The notes below the pieces were generated by a model that saw only the letters and a list, made by a program, of their open reading frames with translations, did no database searches and had not been told where the DNA came from. DNA of 64,000 nucleotides from a virus. Positions within the stretch are counted from its first letter, which is position 1, and each line of letters starts with the position of its first letter. The DNA lies in IMG/VR virus record IMGVR_UViG_3300030060_004838, positions 1 through 64,000 of that record; one strand, given 5' to 3'. The position numbers were made by a program, and so were the translations under genes. Below, in pieces: positions 31,669 through 58,835 of the stretch.

Positions 31669-31678
31669 ACCATATGGA
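31669..31678. repeat. ACCATATGG palindrome, copy 1
   Basis: ACCATATGGA; eight of its bases form the perfect palindrome CCATATGG. First of nine copies restricted, as far as I can see, to 31.67-35.85 kb. Confidence 0.85.
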
Positions 31679-31715: not shown

Positions 31716-31736
31716 ATGAGAGATGATGACGAATGA
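31716..31736 (+). other. Micro-ORF MRDDDE
   Basis: ATG-AGA-GAT-GAT-GAC-GAA-TGA: a six-residue frame ending DDDE, like three other micro-ORFs in this region. No Shine-Dalgarno sequence precedes this one, so it is the weakest member. Confidence 0.35.
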
Positions 31737-31749
31737 ACCTGCACACAGA

Positions 31750-31759
31750 ACCATATGGA
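31750..31759. repeat. ACCATATGG palindrome, copy 2
   Basis: ACCATATGGA. The GGAT that ends it can pair with ATCC about 18 bases further on, as the GGT arms of other copies pair with downstream ACC. Confidence 0.85.
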
Positions 31760-31817
31760 TTGAAACTTTGTGGCATCCTTAGTAATAGAACGAACACCTA
31801 TTATATGGTGAATTGTA

Positions 31818-32060
31818 ATGGTAAAACAACAATGCAAACTAACAGGCAAGATGGTAGAACGCAAAGAGATTAACCAAAATGGTTATTCAAAACTGCATTA
31901 TAGCGAGTATCAGAAAATGAGAAACTACGCTAAGAAGCAATTGAATCAAACATTTGGTATCGCTGATTATAGAAAAGTCATGGGCTTTGAAGTAGTTAGT
32001 CGCAAATCTCTATCAGAAGAATTGAAAACAAAAGTGAGAGTGTATTTCCATGACGAATGA
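31818..32060 (+). CDS. Small basic rightward protein (80 aa)
   Basis: MVKQQCKLTGKMVERKEINQNGYSKLHYSEYQKMRNYAKKQLNQ: highly basic and helical. GGTGAATTGTA precedes the ATG. It ends 'VYFHDE', and its stop overlaps the next start (ATGA). No family recognised; size, charge and location next to the palindromes suggest a DNA- or RNA-binding regulator. Confidence 0.7.
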   Translation: MVKQQCKLTGKMVERKEINQNGYSKLHYSEYQKMRNYAKKQLNQTFGIADYRKVMGFEVVSRKSLSEELKTKVRVYFHDE

Positions 32061-32266
32061 AGGACTTTAGTAAATTAACATTTGATGCTATGATTTCAGC
32101 ATTAATGAATGTAGATGACCAATTTCAGCAATTTGATGACATTTCTATTAATGTCAAGCAAGGCGGCATTCAATTAAGAATGAAGAAGAATTGGAAGGGC
32201 GTTTCTATGAGTTTGAAAAACGAGGAACGACTAAGAAGGCATGAAGAAAGCATGTCGGAATACTGA
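32057..32266 (+). CDS. Small rightward protein (69 aa)
   Basis: Translationally coupled (ATGA) to the 80-aa gene. MKDFSKLTFDAMISALMNVDDQFQQFDDISINVKQGGIQLRMKKNWKG: amphipathic helix followed by a strand-like basic segment. No family recognised. A terminator-like hairpin follows 27 bases after the stop. Confidence 0.7.
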   Translation: MKDFSKLTFDAMISALMNVDDQFQQFDDISINVKQGGIQLRMKKNWKGVSMSLKNEERLRRHEESMSEY

Positions 32267-32292
32267 TTAAAATCAGGTAAGTTTGGAAAATT

Positions 32293-32337
32293 GAGGGATT
32301 TTGGGGCTTTTCGGAGTCCTGAAATCTCTCTTTTTTT
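32293..32337 (+). terminator. Hairpin plus T-run terminator
   Basis: GAGGGATTT (32293-32301) pairs with AAATCTCTC (32322-32330) over nine pairs with one G-T, followed directly by seven T residues. It closes the rightward pair 31818-32266. Confidence 0.65.
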
Positions 32338-32375
32338 AGGGTGCGTCATTTCCACAAATTTACAATTTAATACTT

Positions 32376-32385
32376 ACCATATGGT
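32376..32385. repeat. ACCATATGGT palindrome, copy 3
   Basis: Perfect 10-bp palindrome that begins hairpin unit A. Confidence 0.9.
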
Positions 32386-32423
32386 AGGCGATAGCACATT
32401 CTACCGCAGGAGGGATAATAAGA

Positions 32424-32444
32424 ATGTTTGATTGTGATGAGTGA
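32424..32444 (+). other. Micro-ORF MFDCDE
   Basis: ATG-TTT-GAT-TGT-GAT-GAG-TGA preceded nine bases upstream by AGGAGGG (32408-32414), a near-ideal Shine-Dalgarno. The start codon touches the left arm of a helix whose partner is 32457-32465. Confidence 0.55.
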
Positions 32445-32464
32445 TGTTAGTTTATTTTCTTATT

Positions 32465-32474
32465 ACCATATGGT
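32465..32474. repeat. ACCATATGGT palindrome, copy 4
   Basis: Perfect palindrome at the joint of units A and B; its first A ends the right arm of unit A, and its GGT begins the GGTTC/GAACC helix of unit B. Confidence 0.9.
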
Positions 32475-32515
32475 TCATGCGTTAGCATATGATGAACCGC
32501 AGGGGGGATAACAGA

Positions 32516-32539
32516 ATGTTCTTTGACGATGACGAGTGA
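32516..32539 (+). other. Micro-ORF MFFDDDE
   Basis: ATG-TTC-TTT-GAC-GAT-GAC-GAG-TGA, eight bases after AGGGGGG (32501-32507). The first codons lie in the left arm of a nine-pair helix (32515-32523 with 32551-32559). Confidence 0.55.
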
Positions 32540-32569
32540 TTACATCAGTTAAGAACATTTTAATCTGTT

Positions 32570-32579
32570 ACCATATGGT
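32570..32579. repeat. ACCATATGGT palindrome, copy 5
   Basis: Perfect palindrome closing unit B. Confidence 0.9.
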
Positions 32580-32612
32580 AATGCTTTGCAATTACCTTAG
32601 ATTTTTCAAAAA

Positions 32613-32650
32613 TGGTATTTTTTATTTTCCTGCATTGGAAAAAAATACCA
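32613..32650. terminator. Long A/T hairpin between convergent genes
   Basis: TGGTATTTTTT (32613-32623) is the exact reverse complement of AAAAAATACCA (32640-32650), with TTTTCC/GGAAAA pairing inside. It lies between rightward units and the end of the leftward gene at 32673, and with T-runs on both strands could terminate in both directions. Confidence 0.6.
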
Positions 32651-32672
32651 AAAAACCAAATATATCAAGATA

Positions 32673-32855
32673 CTAAAAATGGAAAGAAACTCCCCAATAA
32701 TGTTCTATTGCGCCTCTAAATTTATCTTCATTAAATCTCTCATTATCCTCTTTGAAAAATTGACAAAACGAATTTATCGTATATTCATCTATTTTCAAAT
32801 CTCCAAATAAACGAGCCACTATTTCATAATGTCTTTGTTGAAATTTAGGATTCAT
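32673..32855 (-). CDS. Small leftward protein (60 aa)
   Basis: MNPKFQQRHYEIVARLFGDLKIDEYTINSFCQFFKEDNERFNEDKFRGAIEHYW: a compact helical sequence with many aromatic residues. Last gene of the four-gene leftward operon 33590-32673; overlaps the preceding gene by 11 bases. No family recognised. Confidence 0.7.
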   Translation of the reverse strand: MNPKFQQRHYEIVARLFGDLKIDEYTINSFCQFFKEDNERFNEDKFRGAIEHYWGVSFHF

Positions 32856-33096
32856 TTAAATTCCACCCCCTATAAAATGGATAATCAGGTAAGTGTCTAC
32901 AAATTTGATTAAATGCTACACAATACATATCTAATGTTTCATAAAATGATGGGTGGTCATCTTCTTCATAAATTTCTTCCATTTGATGAATTAGGAATCT
33001 AACAGTCATAAGTATATCTGTAATTTCATCATTTGTGATATTATCAGCATACCATTGTTTTATCATCTTCAATCTTTTTTCTGTAAATTTTACCAT
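32845..33096 (-). CDS. Small leftward protein (83 aa)
   Basis: From ATG 33096 (GAGG upstream) MVKFTEKRLKMIKQWYADNITNDEITDILMTVRFLIHQMEEIYEEDD. Helical, aromatic-rich; ends in 'CRHLPDYPFYRGWNLNES'. No family recognised. The longer frame from 33111 would overlap the upstream gene by 11 bases. Confidence 0.65.
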   Translation of the reverse strand: MVKFTEKRLKMIKQWYADNITNDEITDILMTVRFLIHQMEEIYEEDDHPSFYETLDMYCVAFNQICRHLPDYPFYRGWNLNES

Positions 33097-33100
33097 AATA

Positions 33101-33379
33101 TCAAGCCTCAAATGTAAATATTTTTCTAATATTTTCTAATTCTTCTTTTACAGGTTTTGCACAACATTCACAATCCCAATCTTCAAGATTACTTAGAATA
33201 TATAGGATTTGTGTAGAAACTCCTTCACTTCCATATTCCATCCATGCTCTATCCATAGCCAAAAAATATGATATTGCATATTCTCGGTATGTTGGTTTTT
33301 TATCGTTATAGCAATTCTTTGCACTTATTACTTTGAATCTTAGGCTGTATAATTTTCTAAATATTTCTTCCGTTGGCAT
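33101..33379 (-). CDS. Small leftward protein with Cys cluster (92 aa)
   Basis: ATG 33379 after GGAGATGAGTAAA gives MPTEEIFRKLYSLRFKVISAKNCYNDKKPTYREYAISYFLAMDRAW. The C-terminal part has 'DWDCECCAKPVKEEL', three clustered cysteines that might bind zinc. Helical. No family recognised. Confidence 0.65.
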   Translation of the reverse strand: MPTEEIFRKLYSLRFKVISAKNCYNDKKPTYREYAISYFLAMDRAWMEYGSEGVSTQILYILSNLEDWDCECCAKPVKEELENIRKIFTFEA

Positions 33380-33380
33380 T

Positions 33381-33590
33381 TTACTCATCTCCATTAACTT
33401 CATTTGTTTTCTCAATTACTGCTTGAATTAGTGCTTCCATATTTTCTTTCACTTCATCAATTGTATCACCTTGCACTCTTGCGCTTTCACAAATCCAATT
33501 TTTATATCGGTCTTGTTTTAGTTTAACAACAAAATTTTTCTGCACAGGCTCGCTTTTTTCTTCTTCTAAATTCTTTTTCCAGAATGGCAT
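33381..33590 (-). CDS. HicB-like small protein (69 aa)
   Basis: 'KNFVVKLKQDRYKNWICESARVQGDTIDEVKENMEALIQAVIEKTNE' follows the HicB antitoxin pattern: a strand pair, then 'GDT.eEa..N...ai......'. HicB proteins are partial RNase H folds that neutralise HicA and repress their operon. No HicA gene is adjacent; a HicA-like gene lies at 39421. First gene of the leftward operon; GTGGTGAAAAAAT precedes the ATG. Confidence 0.55.
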   Translation of the reverse strand: MPFWKKNLEEEKSEPVQKNFVVKLKQDRYKNWICESARVQGDTIDEVKENMEALIQAVIEKTNEVNGDE

Positions 33591-33863
33591 ATTTTTTCAC
33601 CACATAATTATATTTTGAACGGTTTATGGTTCGTGCTTCAAAGTAGCCTTACCATATGGTTCTGCTTTGAAGAACCTTAAAAAATTAAAAAAAATAAAAT
33701 TTTAAAAAATATTTTTTTGGTGAAGGAAAAAATAATTAAAAACCTTGATTTTTTTTGACAAGAAAAATTCTAAAAACTTGTGGCAATTTTTTGTGTGATT
33801 GCCAAATCAATATCTACGGGCTTCTCAAAATATTTGATGTATCTAAAGATTCAATCTTCATCT
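33591..33863. other. AT-rich spacer with one palindrome
   Basis: No gene. Contains palindrome copy 6 and, at 33680-33730, runs of A and T typical of promoter or unwinding DNA. It serves as upstream region of the leftward HicB-like operon. Confidence 0.5.
33651..33660. repeat. ACCATATGGT palindrome, copy 6, with flanking arms
   Basis: Flanked by CTTCAAAG (33636-33643) and CTTTGAAG (33665-33672), an eight-base inverted repeat centred on the palindrome; GGTTC (33658-33662) can also pair with GAACC (33672-33676), as in unit B. Confidence 0.85.
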
Positions 33864-34499
33864 TCAATTAGAAGATTCATCAGATTCACCTTCGTCATTA
33901 TCAGATTCTGTTGCATTTTCTTCTGATGGTGGTGGCGCAATTGTCATTCCATCTTCAAGAGAAAAGTTTCCATCCCAACGACCATCATTGAAATATTTTG
34001 TAAATCTTTGATTTACTGCTACTCCACGACCATCTCCGAAATCTAAACCGTTCTCAAATGGTGAACCACCAACCTCTTTATTTCTATCAGAAATTACAGA
34101 TGTCATTTGGATAATCGGATTTGAATTCCAAAATTCTGCGTATGCTTCTGCAACCAATTTCTTTAGAGTTTTCAAACTTGCTTGAGCGTGTGCTGGCAAA
34201 TTTGATTCTTTTCCAATTGAAACAGGCCAATCCATAGCCAATTTTCCATCTGTTTTTTCTACTGTCCAATCTCGACCTTCAATGAGGATTTGATTCCATA
34301 AATTCTTCCGCTTTTCTGCATTTCTGTTTCCTCTACGGATATTCATGTTAATCAATTCAACAGCATCAATAATATCATCTGAAGAATTCAAAAATTCTTG
34401 ATTACCTTCAAGGCTCAAGAAATCCTCAATTCTTCCAATTCTCTTATTCCATGCTTCATCTGTCATTGACAAATCTTTTTCTTTCTTTTCTTTCGGCAT
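33864..34499 (-). CDS. Control-region protein, paralogue of the 34656 gene (211 aa)
   Basis: MPKEKKEKDLSMTDEAWNKRIGRIEDFLSLE, then 'AVELINMNIRRGNRNAEKRK' (about residues 46-65), which aligns with 'AVNTIKRGRKFANKRKRC' of the divergent gene at 34656. 'AYAEFWNSNPI' aligns with 'PNEDYWNALPI', and 'DGRGVAVNQRFTKYFNDGRW' with 'DGKSFAKRMNESLVKKWTVH'. Acidic, S-rich tail (EENATESDNDEGESDESS). A basic helix flanked by shared motifs suggests a DNA-binding regulator or origin protein. The stop is followed by palindrome 6. Confidence 0.75.
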   Translation of the reverse strand: MPKEKKEKDLSMTDEAWNKRIGRIEDFLSLEGNQEFLNSSDDIIDAVELINMNIRRGNRNAEKRKNLWNQILIEGRDWTVEKTDGKLAMDWPVSIGKESNLPAHAQASLKTLKKLVAEAYAEFWNSNPIIQMTSVISDRNKEVGGSPFENGLDFGDGRGVAVNQRFTKYFNDGRWDGNFSLEDGMTIAPPPSEENATESDNDEGESDESSN

Positions 34500-34588
34500 A
34501 TTTATTTCTCCTTATTTTTTTTCTGTCGCCAATATTTTTTGGCGTAGAATATCATCATTTTTTATTATTCAAGGTAATTCAAAGTATT

Positions 34589-34598
34589 ACCATATGGT
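34589..34598. repeat. ACCATATGGT palindrome, copy 7, with flanking arms
   Basis: Between the divergent paralogues. CAAAGT on the left and ACTTTG on the right give a six-base inverted repeat around the palindrome, and GGTT pairs with AACC 14 bases on. Confidence 0.9.
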
Positions 34599-34655
34599 TG
34601 CAACTTTGTGAAAACCCTATACCTGAAACCCTCTTTTATTATGTGGTGAAAACCA

Positions 34656-35135
34656 ATGAGTAAAGAAAAATACGAAACTGATGAGGGCTATGAAGCATTT
34701 GTAGCACCTCTTGAAGAATATATGAAGAAGAACAAAGCCAAAGATGCTGAAATGACAGATGCCTATGAGTATGCTGTGAACACCATCAAAAGAGGTCGAA
34801 AGTTTGCTAACAAAAGAAAAAGATGTTTTGACAGTCTGTATGATGAGTGGAACCATCTTAATTTTGAAGGTTGGCCTTTGAAGAAGTTAGATGATGAAAC
34901 CACTAAGGAAATTCAAAAGATGGCTGATGATATGGACACACCAAATGAAGATTATTGGAATGCCCTACCTATCAAACCTACATTTAAGGTCAAAGGTAAG
35001 GAATACATTGATGCTGATGGCAAATCCTTTGCTAAGAGGATGAATGAATCACTTGTGAAGAAATGGACTGTTCACGCCAAAGAGAACGGTTCACTTTGGA
35101 AGTCCCAAGATGATATACCCACCCGAGAGGCTTGA
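34656..35135 (+). CDS. Control-region protein, paralogue of the 33864 gene (159 aa)
   Basis: MSKEKYETDEGYEAFVAPLEEYMKKNK; the shared basic helix 'TIKRGRKFANKRKRCFDSLYDEW' lies at about residues 43-65, followed by 'NEDYWNALPIKPTFKV' and a short C-terminus. GGTGAAAACC precedes the ATG. It is shorter than its partner, lacking the acidic tail. The pair is transcribed outward from the palindrome at 34589, so they may be autoregulated through it. Micro-ORF MFDDDE follows three bases after the stop. Confidence 0.8.
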   Translation: MSKEKYETDEGYEAFVAPLEEYMKKNKAKDAEMTDAYEYAVNTIKRGRKFANKRKRCFDSLYDEWNHLNFEGWPLKKLDDETTKEIQKMADDMDTPNEDYWNALPIKPTFKVKGKEYIDADGKSFAKRMNESLVKKWTVHAKENGSLWKSQDDIPTREA

Positions 35136-35137
35136 AT

Positions 35138-35158
35138 ATGTTTGACGATGATGAATGA
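35138..35158 (+). other. Micro-ORF MFDDDE
   Basis: ATG-TTT-GAC-GAT-GAT-GAA-TGA, seven bases after GAGAGG (35125-35130). Directly follows the stop of the 159-aa gene and would be co-translated with it. Confidence 0.5.
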
Positions 35159-35204
35159 TTGACAAAAATTGACCCCTAATTTTGCCCATACCCCATGCTG
35201 TTTT

Positions 35205-35242
35205 GGTGATTCAGCACAAAAAAAATCACCACCCTTCGGGGT
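35205..35242 (+). terminator. Two adjacent hairpins
   Basis: GGTGATT (35205-35211) pairs with AATCACC (35224-35230), immediately followed by ACCCTTCGGGGT, a stem capped by a TTCG tetraloop. Then TTTC. Probably terminates or stabilises the transcript of the 159-aa gene and its micro-ORF. Confidence 0.5.
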
Positions 35243-35290
35243 TTCTTACCACTATTCAAAGAATCGTTTTTACAATGTTTATTGTTAGTA

Positions 35291-35300
35291 ACCATATGGT
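35291..35300. repeat. ACCATATGGT palindrome, copy 8
   Basis: Perfect palindrome, preceded by an extra A and followed by T (AACCATATGGTT, 12-bp palindrome). Confidence 0.9.
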
Positions 35301-35840
35301 TGTAATTTTTACACCCTGAAAAAAATAAAAAAAATAAAAAAGGTGGTAGAGAAATCATTTAAGATTTTTTTAAAATATCGGGGATGATATTTATGCATGA
35401 TAATATGATACAACAAACAAAGAACCAATTAAGAAACTCTACCATGAGTTATTTGTTGTAAAAGGGTGTGGGCAGGATTAGGTCGGTTAAACCATAACTT
35501 ACCTGCAAATTTTCACGGAAACACCTGCTTTTATTCTTGATTTGCAAATAAAATCGGCCGCTACTTCTAACTTCCCCACTTGAGCGTTTGTTCTCAAATG
35601 TTCCCACAGACAATTCGCTAAAACTGTTCACGCTATTAAATCGTTCACAAATGCAGCCTTTGATTATTACGCCACTCCTTCTCGATGGAAAGATTAATTG
35701 CATTTATCCGCTAAGAAAATCTCGGGAGGAATACCTTAAAGTGTTCAATCTCTTTTTCAGTCACCACAATATCTTGACCCGCTAAAGCCAAGATGTAGAA
35801 TATGATTGATTTATAGCCGTAAGGTCATCACAAAGAGATT

Positions 35841-35850
35841 ACCATATGGT
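35841..35850. repeat. ACCATATGGT palindrome, copy 9
   Basis: Last copy in the window, 29 bases before a second palindrome CTTCATATGAAG (35879-35890) that shares the CATATG core. Confidence 0.9.
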
Positions 35851-57546: not shown

Positions 57547-57805
57547 CCATCAAGATTCTGAAAACTTTGCTTATGATAAAACATGGGAACAAATTGAAGC
57601 ACTTTTAGATGAGGCTGAAAGAGAACAAAATAGAAGATGGGTAGCATTTCAAAAATGCCCACCAACTTTAAGACAACAACATTGGAATAATTATAAAGGA
57701 TTAGAAGGAGTAATTAATGCTCTTAGATGGGTTCTTGGCGACCTTAAAACGCCAAAAGATAAAGTATTAGGGAGAGATAGATTTGAAAATAGAAGAAAGA
57801 GATAG
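57533..57805 (+). CDS. Small hypothetical protein (90 aa)
   Basis: ATG 57533 after TTGGAGGAAGAATTA. MPMSDHQDSENFAYDKTWEQIEALLDEAEREQNRRWVAFQKCPPTLRQQHWNNYKGLEGVINALRWVLGD: helical and W/R-rich, of a kind seen in phage small proteins, no name. Overlaps the IMPDH-like start by 23 bases. Confidence 0.7.
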   Translation: MPMSDHQDSENFAYDKTWEQIEALLDEAEREQNRRWVAFQKCPPTLRQQHWNNYKGLEGVINALRWVLGDLKTPKDKVLGRDRFENRRKR

Positions 57806-58835
57806 TTTAACTTATGATGATATTAGTATTATACCGAGTATGTCTGATATAAAATCAAGAAGTCATTGTGATACAGCAGTTGGATTCGGCAATTTTAATT
57901 TAAATGTGCCATTAATTGCTTCACCAATGGACACAGTTTGCGGTTCAGAAATGTGTATTGAATTAGCAAAACTTGGTGGGATTGGAGTATTGCATAGATT
58001 TCAAAATATCAAAGAACAGGTAGCATTATGCTATGATATTGAAGCAGAAGTAAGAGGACAATATATTGCTGCAATTGGTGTAGGCCAAAGAGGTAAAAAT
58101 AGATTTGATTCTTTAGTAGGTTATACTAATATTCAAGGTGTCTGTATTGATGTAGCACATGGCGACCATGAATTAGTAGGTGAAATGATTTCTTATATTA
58201 AAGAAGAATTTGAAGATGTACATGTAATGGCAGGTAATATTGTAACTAAAGGTGCGGCTGAAAGATTAATTGAAGCAGGTGCTGATTCTTTAAGAGTAGG
58301 AATAGGTAATGGTTCTATGTGTGAAACAAGAATTAGAGCAGGTGTAGGAGTTCCTCAAGCAACAGCATTATTAGATATTGCATATCATATAAATGAAGTT
58401 TTAGACTTAGATGAAATACCATATATTATTGCTGATGGTGGTTGTAAAACAGTAGGAGATATTCCTAAAGCAATTGCTCTTGGTGCTGATGCAGTTATGA
58501 TAGGTTCTTTATTTGCAGGAACAAAAGAAACTCCTGGAATTATATCTAAAATGGGTCAATGGCCTAATGAACAATTATACAAAAAGTATCAAGGTTCAGC
58601 ATCTATTGATTCTAAAACAGCAAGGGGTGAAGAAACTAAAAATGTAGAGGGTAATTCTAAAATTACACCATACAAAGGAAAGGTAAGAAGAATAGTTGAA
58701 GATATATCTGATGGAATTAAAAGTTCTATGAGTTATGTTGGGGCATATACAATTGCTGATTTCCAAACTAAAGCAAAGTTTTGTAGAGTTACACAAGCAG
58801 GACAATTAGAAGCAAAACCACACGGATTATATTAG
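57783..58835 (+). CDS. IMP dehydrogenase / GMP reductase family enzyme without CBS domains
   Basis: TTG start. (beta/alpha)8 barrel with '[11 protein letters not shown]', '[12 protein letters not shown]', '[10 protein letters not shown]', '[10 protein letters not shown]', '[36 protein letters not shown]' (catalytic Cys in GSMC), '[31 protein letters not shown]', 'YQGSAS' and '[25 protein letters not shown]'. At 350 residues the regulatory CBS pair is missing. The flap and 'GVGVPQATA' favour IMPDH, the length favours GMP reductase. It would shift purine pools for replication or base modification. Confidence 0.9.

Follow-up and report, generated by a model that had tools for sequence, protein, structure and literature searches.

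What does a palindrome do that recurs between small hairpins in the genome of a large virus, and does it act in RNA or in DNA? The window analyzed here comprises bases 1-64000 of the 95,975-base IMG/VR virus record IMGVR_UViG_3300030060_004838. Within it, the sequence-only reading of positions 32376-32579 had pointed to two tandem units (A and B) with matching base changes on both sides of their helices, the palindrome at the joint between consecutive helices and a ribosome site exposed between them, and had proposed either a repeated RNA device or a DNA cruciform array. Indeed, all the pairings on which it drew are present in the sequence: GGTAG with CTACC in unit A; GGTTC with GAACC in unit B and again at 33658-33676; GGTT with AACC at 34595; GGAT with ATCC at 31756; and TAATAAGAA/TTCTTATTA in unit A, to which TAACAGA/TCTGTTA corresponds in unit B. 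The motif array extends well beyond these two units, however, and comparison with related viruses indicates that ACCATATGGT is probably the joint of neighboring cassettes in a shuffling gene array.

The palindrome occurs in the window as seven exact copies of ACCATATGGT and two of ACCATATGGA. With one mismatch or less, 12 copies of ACCATATGGT are found versus 2.06 expected, a count that none of 100 shuffles reached. Relatives were gathered through the proteins adjoining the array and by scanning IMG/VR with the pattern CAAAG-n-CCATATGG-n-CTTTG, which was present in at least 118 stretches. The related virus loci hold 646 copies of the core, CCATATGG, in 1.22 Mb, where 18.6 would be expected. 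All 20 long records match the pattern; a record has ∼6-13 cores, which for the most part form a single cluster. A few copies of CCATATGG lie outside the arrays, and the reversed control pattern gave few or no matches in these 20 records. A survey of 84,980 cellular genomes, one per bacterial or archaeal species, gave 12 scattered pattern matches and no element array except on one viral contig in a bacterial bin. This contig (L132; Altibacter MAG contig NZTP01000027.1, in a flavobacterial bin) carries seven cores and an array protein that is 82% identical, and is evidently a virus contig placed in the wrong bin.

The array carriers are probably a group of ∼90-100 kb tailed viruses of marine archaea. 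All nine CCATATGG cores of the window lie at 31.67-35.85 kb, between a minus-strand gene block that includes the portal protein and a plus-strand block encoding a family B DNA polymerase, a ribonucleotide reductase, an ATP-dependent ligase and a clamp-loader-like ATPase. Because the polymerase is closest to those of haloarchaeal tailed viruses, albeit distantly (∼25%), the host is probably an archaeon. Upon checking for magrovirus membership, the archaeal-type polymerase, the AAA clamp-loader-like ATPase and the ATP ligase were found, and a magrovirus-like host (Poseidoniales) may be envisaged. The phage collection searched contained no named close relative, and the sole match of Rfam models in the window was a tRNA. 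An IMP dehydrogenase/GMP reductase domain protein is encoded at 57783-58835 (PF00478, E 3e-91).

The array of the window coincides with the strand switch and with the GC skew minimum, as might be expected of a replication origin or a cruciform array placed where both gene direction and skew reverse. Divergent transcription also accounts for the change in skew, however, and the copies of CCATATGG are dispersed over 4-8 kb, with roughly one for each gene, follow gene boundaries and flank cassettes that are exchanged between relatives, so that an origin at this hub is very improbable.

Each half-element, read outward from the core, is a hairpin of the form GGTnnn-(CTTTG)-nnnACC. The core is near-invariant (244 exact versus 4 one-mismatch copies among elements with both loops), and its distance from CTTTG differs by several bases. 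Covariation between the three bases after GGT and the three before ACC was counted from anchored positions (MAFFT misaligned the short arms). Among 565 arms, Watson-Crick pairing at stem positions 1, 2 and 3 was 0.73, 0.55 and 0.48, compared with 0.35, 0.25 and 0.31 after permutation, and 180 non-redundant arms gave 0.69, 0.52 and 0.45 versus 0.32, 0.25 and 0.30. Sliding the partner by 1-3 bases lowered the pairing at positions 1 and 2. All four Watson-Crick pair types are seen, enriched 1.3-8 times, with C-G and G-C at the first stem position 5-8 times above expectation. The hairpins are short, and some arms have none. Stem covariation well above the permuted level over hundreds of arms in related viruses thus bears out the earlier proposal of a selected hairpin structure. 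G-U pairs in the stems are at or below expectation, with no clear enrichment, which points weakly to DNA rather than RNA. The stems covary only within an arm; no covariation links the two arms of an element, which therefore consists of two separate hairpins placed back to back. The full-length palindrome as one large hairpin was rejected for the same reason, and ACCATATGGT is the joint of two independent hairpins, just where the sequence-only reading had placed it.

Occupied and empty versions of the same site were compared in the array loci of relatives. Among 67 such comparisons, 31 have an element at each end of the occupied segment and another at the empty site, corresponding to ∼26 distinct pairs once near-identical contigs are collapsed (∼5 near-duplicates); the remaining 36 are insertions elsewhere than at elements, some of them within arrays. 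All 31 empty sites are composites, whose left arm is that of the left element and whose right arm is that of the right one, with mean arm identities of 0.77 versus 0.28 on the left and 0.78 versus 0.28 on the right. HSPs at the empty sites often overlap by barely more than the 8-bp core. The crossover interval favored by parsimony overlaps the core in 20 of the 31 pairs (13 of the 15 that score best); the 11 other best intervals lie off the core, mostly in diverged pairs. From these alignments we infer that exchange takes place at the core, its exact position being not proven. Two segments of the window that end in cores are missing from relatives (Table 1), neighboring f47 and f0 cassettes are in swapped order between L095 and L115, and one cassette is inverted in place between L043 and L114.

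Table 1. Features of the predicted cassette array (window coordinates)
Feature	Position	Strand	Remarks
Cassette-joint core CCATATGG	31670-31677	.	Sequence
Acidic mini-ORF MRDDDE*	31716-31736	+	Ribosome site not clear; L009/L014 keep closely similar DNA
Cassette-joint core	31751-31758	.	Breakpoint of 31751-32466 segment missing from L009/L010
Two-gene cassette	31755-32380	+	ORFs 31818-32060 and 32057-32266
Cassette-joint core opening unit A	32377-32384	.	
Unit A nano-cassette	32381-32469		
Unit A first hairpin, GGTAG...CTACC	32383-32405	+	Arms 32383-32387/32401-32405
Unit A second hairpin, TAATAAGAA...TTCTTATTA, around mini-ORF	32416-32465	+	Arms 32416-32424/32457-32465
Mini-ORF MFDCDE* (unit A)	32424-32444	+	Ribosome site GGAGGG 32409-32414
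Cassette-joint core, unit A/unit B boundary	32466-32473	.	
Unit B nano-cassette	32470-32574		
Unit B first hairpin, GGTTCA...TGAACC	32472-32498	+	
Unit B second hairpin, TAACAGA(ATGTTCTT)...(AAGAACAT)...TCTGTTA, around mini-ORF	32509-32570	+	Arms 32509-32515/32564-32570
Mini-ORF MFFDDDE* (unit B)	32516-32539	+	Ribosome site 32502-32507
Cassette-joint core closing unit B	32571-32578	.	
Four-gene cassette	32575-33655	-	ORFs 32673-32855, 32845-33096, 33101-33379 and 33381-33590
Cassette-joint core	33652-33659	.	CTTTG/CAAAG loops on both sides
Cassette with f0-family gene	33656-34593	-	Gene 33864-34499; relocated and inverted in L009
Cassette-joint core between divergent genes	34590-34597	.	Both loops present
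Cassette with f0-like gene and mini-ORF MFDDDE*	34594-35295	+	Gene 34656-35135; mini-ORF 35138-35158
Cassette-joint core	35292-35299	.	Breakpoint of 35292-35842 segment missing from L014
Final cassette-joint core of array	35842-35849	.	

The median length is 678 bp for the 285 stretches from one element to the next that carry reliable genes; a single gene is present in 234 of them, and the strands are evenly represented (138 plus, 147 minus). Gene families reappear in changed order and orientation among relatives, and the elements sit between genes in every relative orientation, including at gene ends and between convergent pairs. With the simple ORF caller used, about a quarter of the elements land inside predicted ORFs, mostly short ones. 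On the gene-start side, the outer arm leads into a TATA-like box, with an A/T-rich step at +25-27 and start codons most frequent at 40-60 bases from the core; the box, ACC[CT]TA[TA], is found in 113 of 245 gene-start arms versus 34 of 212 gene-end arms. Sense-strand hairpins with a TTCG loop occur on 58 of 285 gene-end sides versus 1 gene-start side. These UUCG-type stem-loops are a transcript feature, probably serving 3′-end formation or protection. Judged by such signals, most cassettes look like complete transcription units, of predicted activity. The UUCG stem-loops after about one-fifth of the cassette genes may be a 3′-end signal of the host or of the virus. One cassette family, f1 (L059, 13067-13378, and 27 relatives), matches Pfam Kyano_Gp96 and phrog_554, a T4-like cyanophage family; its genes are common to unrelated marine phages.

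The strictly palindromic core and the TATA-like promoters adjoining it on gene-start sides would also suit an operator, at which a viral repressor or activator of probably early genes binds CCATATGG and shuffling is a by-product of the repeats. Precedents are the repeats of halovirus HF2 (PMC8707807) and the early genes of Sulfolobus viruses (PMC11065993). The core also occurs where genes end and where two genes converge, however, its spacing from CTTTG shifts, and covarying stems are unnecessary for an operator. An operator and nothing else is therefore unlikely, although binding of a regulator may be an added role of the core.

Units A and B can be termed nano-cassettes: the sole predicted gene of each would encode an acidic hexa- or heptapeptide, MFDCDE or MFFDDDE. 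In both, the first hairpin is followed by the ribosome site and then by an ORF of 6-7 codons within the second hairpin; the ribosome site seen earlier between the helices is thus present and leads this acidic mini-ORF. In the same setting, relatives have MFDDDE, MFDDCE, MFCDDD, MFEDDE, MYDDED, MYCDDE and MFDEED, among others, and in L014 a third nano-unit sits between the counterparts of units A and B. Acidic mini-ORFs led by a ribosome site were counted 27 times in 326 kb of array DNA, versus 2 in 573 kb outside and 0 in shuffles. The first-hairpin stems show compensated differences across units and viruses (GGTAG/CTACC, GGTTCA/TGAACC, GGTAGC/GCTACC). Having no TATA-like box of their own, the nano-cassettes would rely on read-through. 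The mini-ORF MFDDDE also overlaps or directly follows the stop of an f0-like gene in two viruses (Table 1; L014, 4928-4948), with synonymous codon changes, as though an acidic tail were produced as a peptide of its own.

These mini-ORFs, with their start codons in the second hairpin, are consistent with an RNA device in which the hairpins form a translation switch, a ribosome decoy or a protein-binding array with the ribosome site as its functional center. The gene-end UUCG stem-loops are clearly transcript features, and the sense RNA of unit B folds better than shuffles (z -4.0). Unit B folds equally well as antisense RNA and as DNA, however, and the sense RNA of unit A has a z of only -0.55, another fold being favored over the two-hairpin one. 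In addition, the element is symmetric and lies at gene starts and gene ends and on both strands, the stems are enriched in Watson-Crick pairs and not clearly in G-U pairs, and an RNA device leaves the cassette breakpoints unexplained. An RNA device is improbable, and an RNA switch as the main role was rejected, since neither G-U strand asymmetry, sense versus antisense folds nor element orientation supports it. Of the two alternatives first offered for units A and B, the DNA one came nearer the truth, while the switch, decoy or protein-binding array found no support as the main role.

For the cassette joint, an exchange mechanism can be proposed from the evidence, all of it comparative. A cassette extends between the midpoints of two consecutive CCAT/ATGG sites. 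Its ends carry the same kind of sequence in inverted form, ATGGTnnn-CTTTG-nnnACC, so that any end-to-end join rebuilds the palindrome, whatever the order or orientation. Recombination at the common core would allow cassettes to be lost, gained, moved or inverted and would leave the terminal hairpins unsplit. Such sparing of the hairpins fits covariation within arms only, a connection that may be causal, and the hairpins may serve recombination rather than, or besides, regulation.

Tyrosine recombinase (PF00589), serine recombinase/resolvase (PF00239) and Y1 transposase (PF01797) were found in none of the 20 records and were rejected as the enzyme; HNH is present in just 5 of the 20. The f0 family (130 sequences of ∼160-210 aa with acidic tails, two of them in the window) occurs in 1-4 copies in 19 of the 20 records, mostly within the array. 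It has no Pfam match, and its AlphaFold model is all-helical (pLDDT 88) with no fold match in the PDB, so that a known DNA-binding protein was rejected; f0 is an unremarkable candidate partner.

The strict core, core-centered exchange in both orientations and inverted-hairpin cassette ends argue for a dedicated site-specific system, in which a viral or host enzyme would recognize the core, the folded single-strand ends or both, integron-like in nature with a symmetric and orientation-free site. Likewise, the identical stretch common to both arms is short and offers little for ordinary homologous recombination, and the 84,980 cellular genomes surveyed, bar the misplaced viral contig, lack the array. 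With no tested recombinase or transposase family in the 20 records, and an array-associated f0 that resembles no solved structure, such a system is possible but doubtful. General viral or host enzymes acting at the conserved core, a route also proposed for the promoter-early stem-loops of T4-type phages, seem likelier than a classical site-specific recombinase. Only tentatively could one speak of a new gene-capture system of marine archaeal viruses, a symmetric integron-like array with an enzyme for the palindrome and the folded ends, trading small genes as well as nano-genes of six or seven codons; we think this rather unlikely.

The closest known kind of element is the promoter-early stem-loop (PeSL) of T4-type phages (Arbiol 2010 and Comeau 2014, cited in PMC4503421), reportedly an intergenic promoter plus stem-loop. 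PeSLs are said to be dense among small variable genes, which recombination between copies shuffles. Analogous to a PeSL, the viral joint has a promoter-like box where the downstream gene begins, a stem-loop (a predicted terminator) after the upstream gene in a minority of cassettes, and gene gain, loss or replacement bounded by the elements in the occupied/empty pairs. Unlike a PeSL, it places a perfect palindrome between hairpins that are inverted relative to each other, which lets cassettes lie in either direction, and it has covarying stems and nano-cassettes. PeSLs are directional, in same-strand blocks, and have a sigma-70-type early promoter in a T4-like genome, whereas the array has both orientations and an archaeal-type TATA-like box, in viruses that are unrelated to T4-type phages and probably archaeal. 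Halovirus HGTV-1, an archaeal tailed virus, has been proposed to carry a motif resembling the PeSL: a TATA-like region and an inverted repeat precede many small genes, and shuffling was suggested (PMC3950731). When the HGTV-1 sequence was compared, more than 20 copies were found in a same-strand gene block, with one conserved hairpin, CTCCTCGTGGCACGAGGAG; it has no palindromic joint, and CCATATGG occurs twice in the 94 kb examined, neither time in the motif region.

Integrons are arrays of small single-gene cassettes with recombination sites whose hairpin arms conserve structure. The viral array resembles them in its small single-gene cassettes separated by structured, hairpin-armed sites, but it has no tyrosine integrase in the 20 records. 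In contrast to attC, a single large hairpin with a GTTRRRY core, the viral site has the core CCATATGG and two separate hairpins with no between-arm pairing; it is symmetric and used in both orientations, and most cassettes have their own promoter-like sequence. Serine-recombinase invertases and IS200/IS605-type elements differ in their enzymes, which these records lack. In HF2, an archaeal tailed virus, intergenic repeats carry promoters and keep their position and orientation among relatives, with no cassette exchange described in the available part of that report (PMC8707807). Anti-defense genes of archaeal viruses are small, mostly single and variable, and have a common upstream early regulatory sequence; the available part of that source describes no palindromic joint, terminal hairpins or motif exchange (PMC11065993). 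The one dedicated magrovirus paper searched leaves repeats and palindromes unmentioned, and other literature searches found no report of the CCATATGG element.

The viral joint thus acts like a PeSL but is symmetric, orientation-free and hairpin-ended, and it probably operates at the DNA level, not mainly as an RNA switch. This gives a concrete, testable account of how accessory genes are rearranged in a large group of marine viruses, probably of archaea, in which the breakpoint sequence is visible. Few conserved genes that might be proposed would be shorter than those of the putative acidic hexapeptide cassettes. The joint also serves as a search handle: a small gene between two copies of CCATATGG is a candidate accessory gene, for example for anti-defense, and hundreds of cassette genes without known function already lie within the loci gathered.
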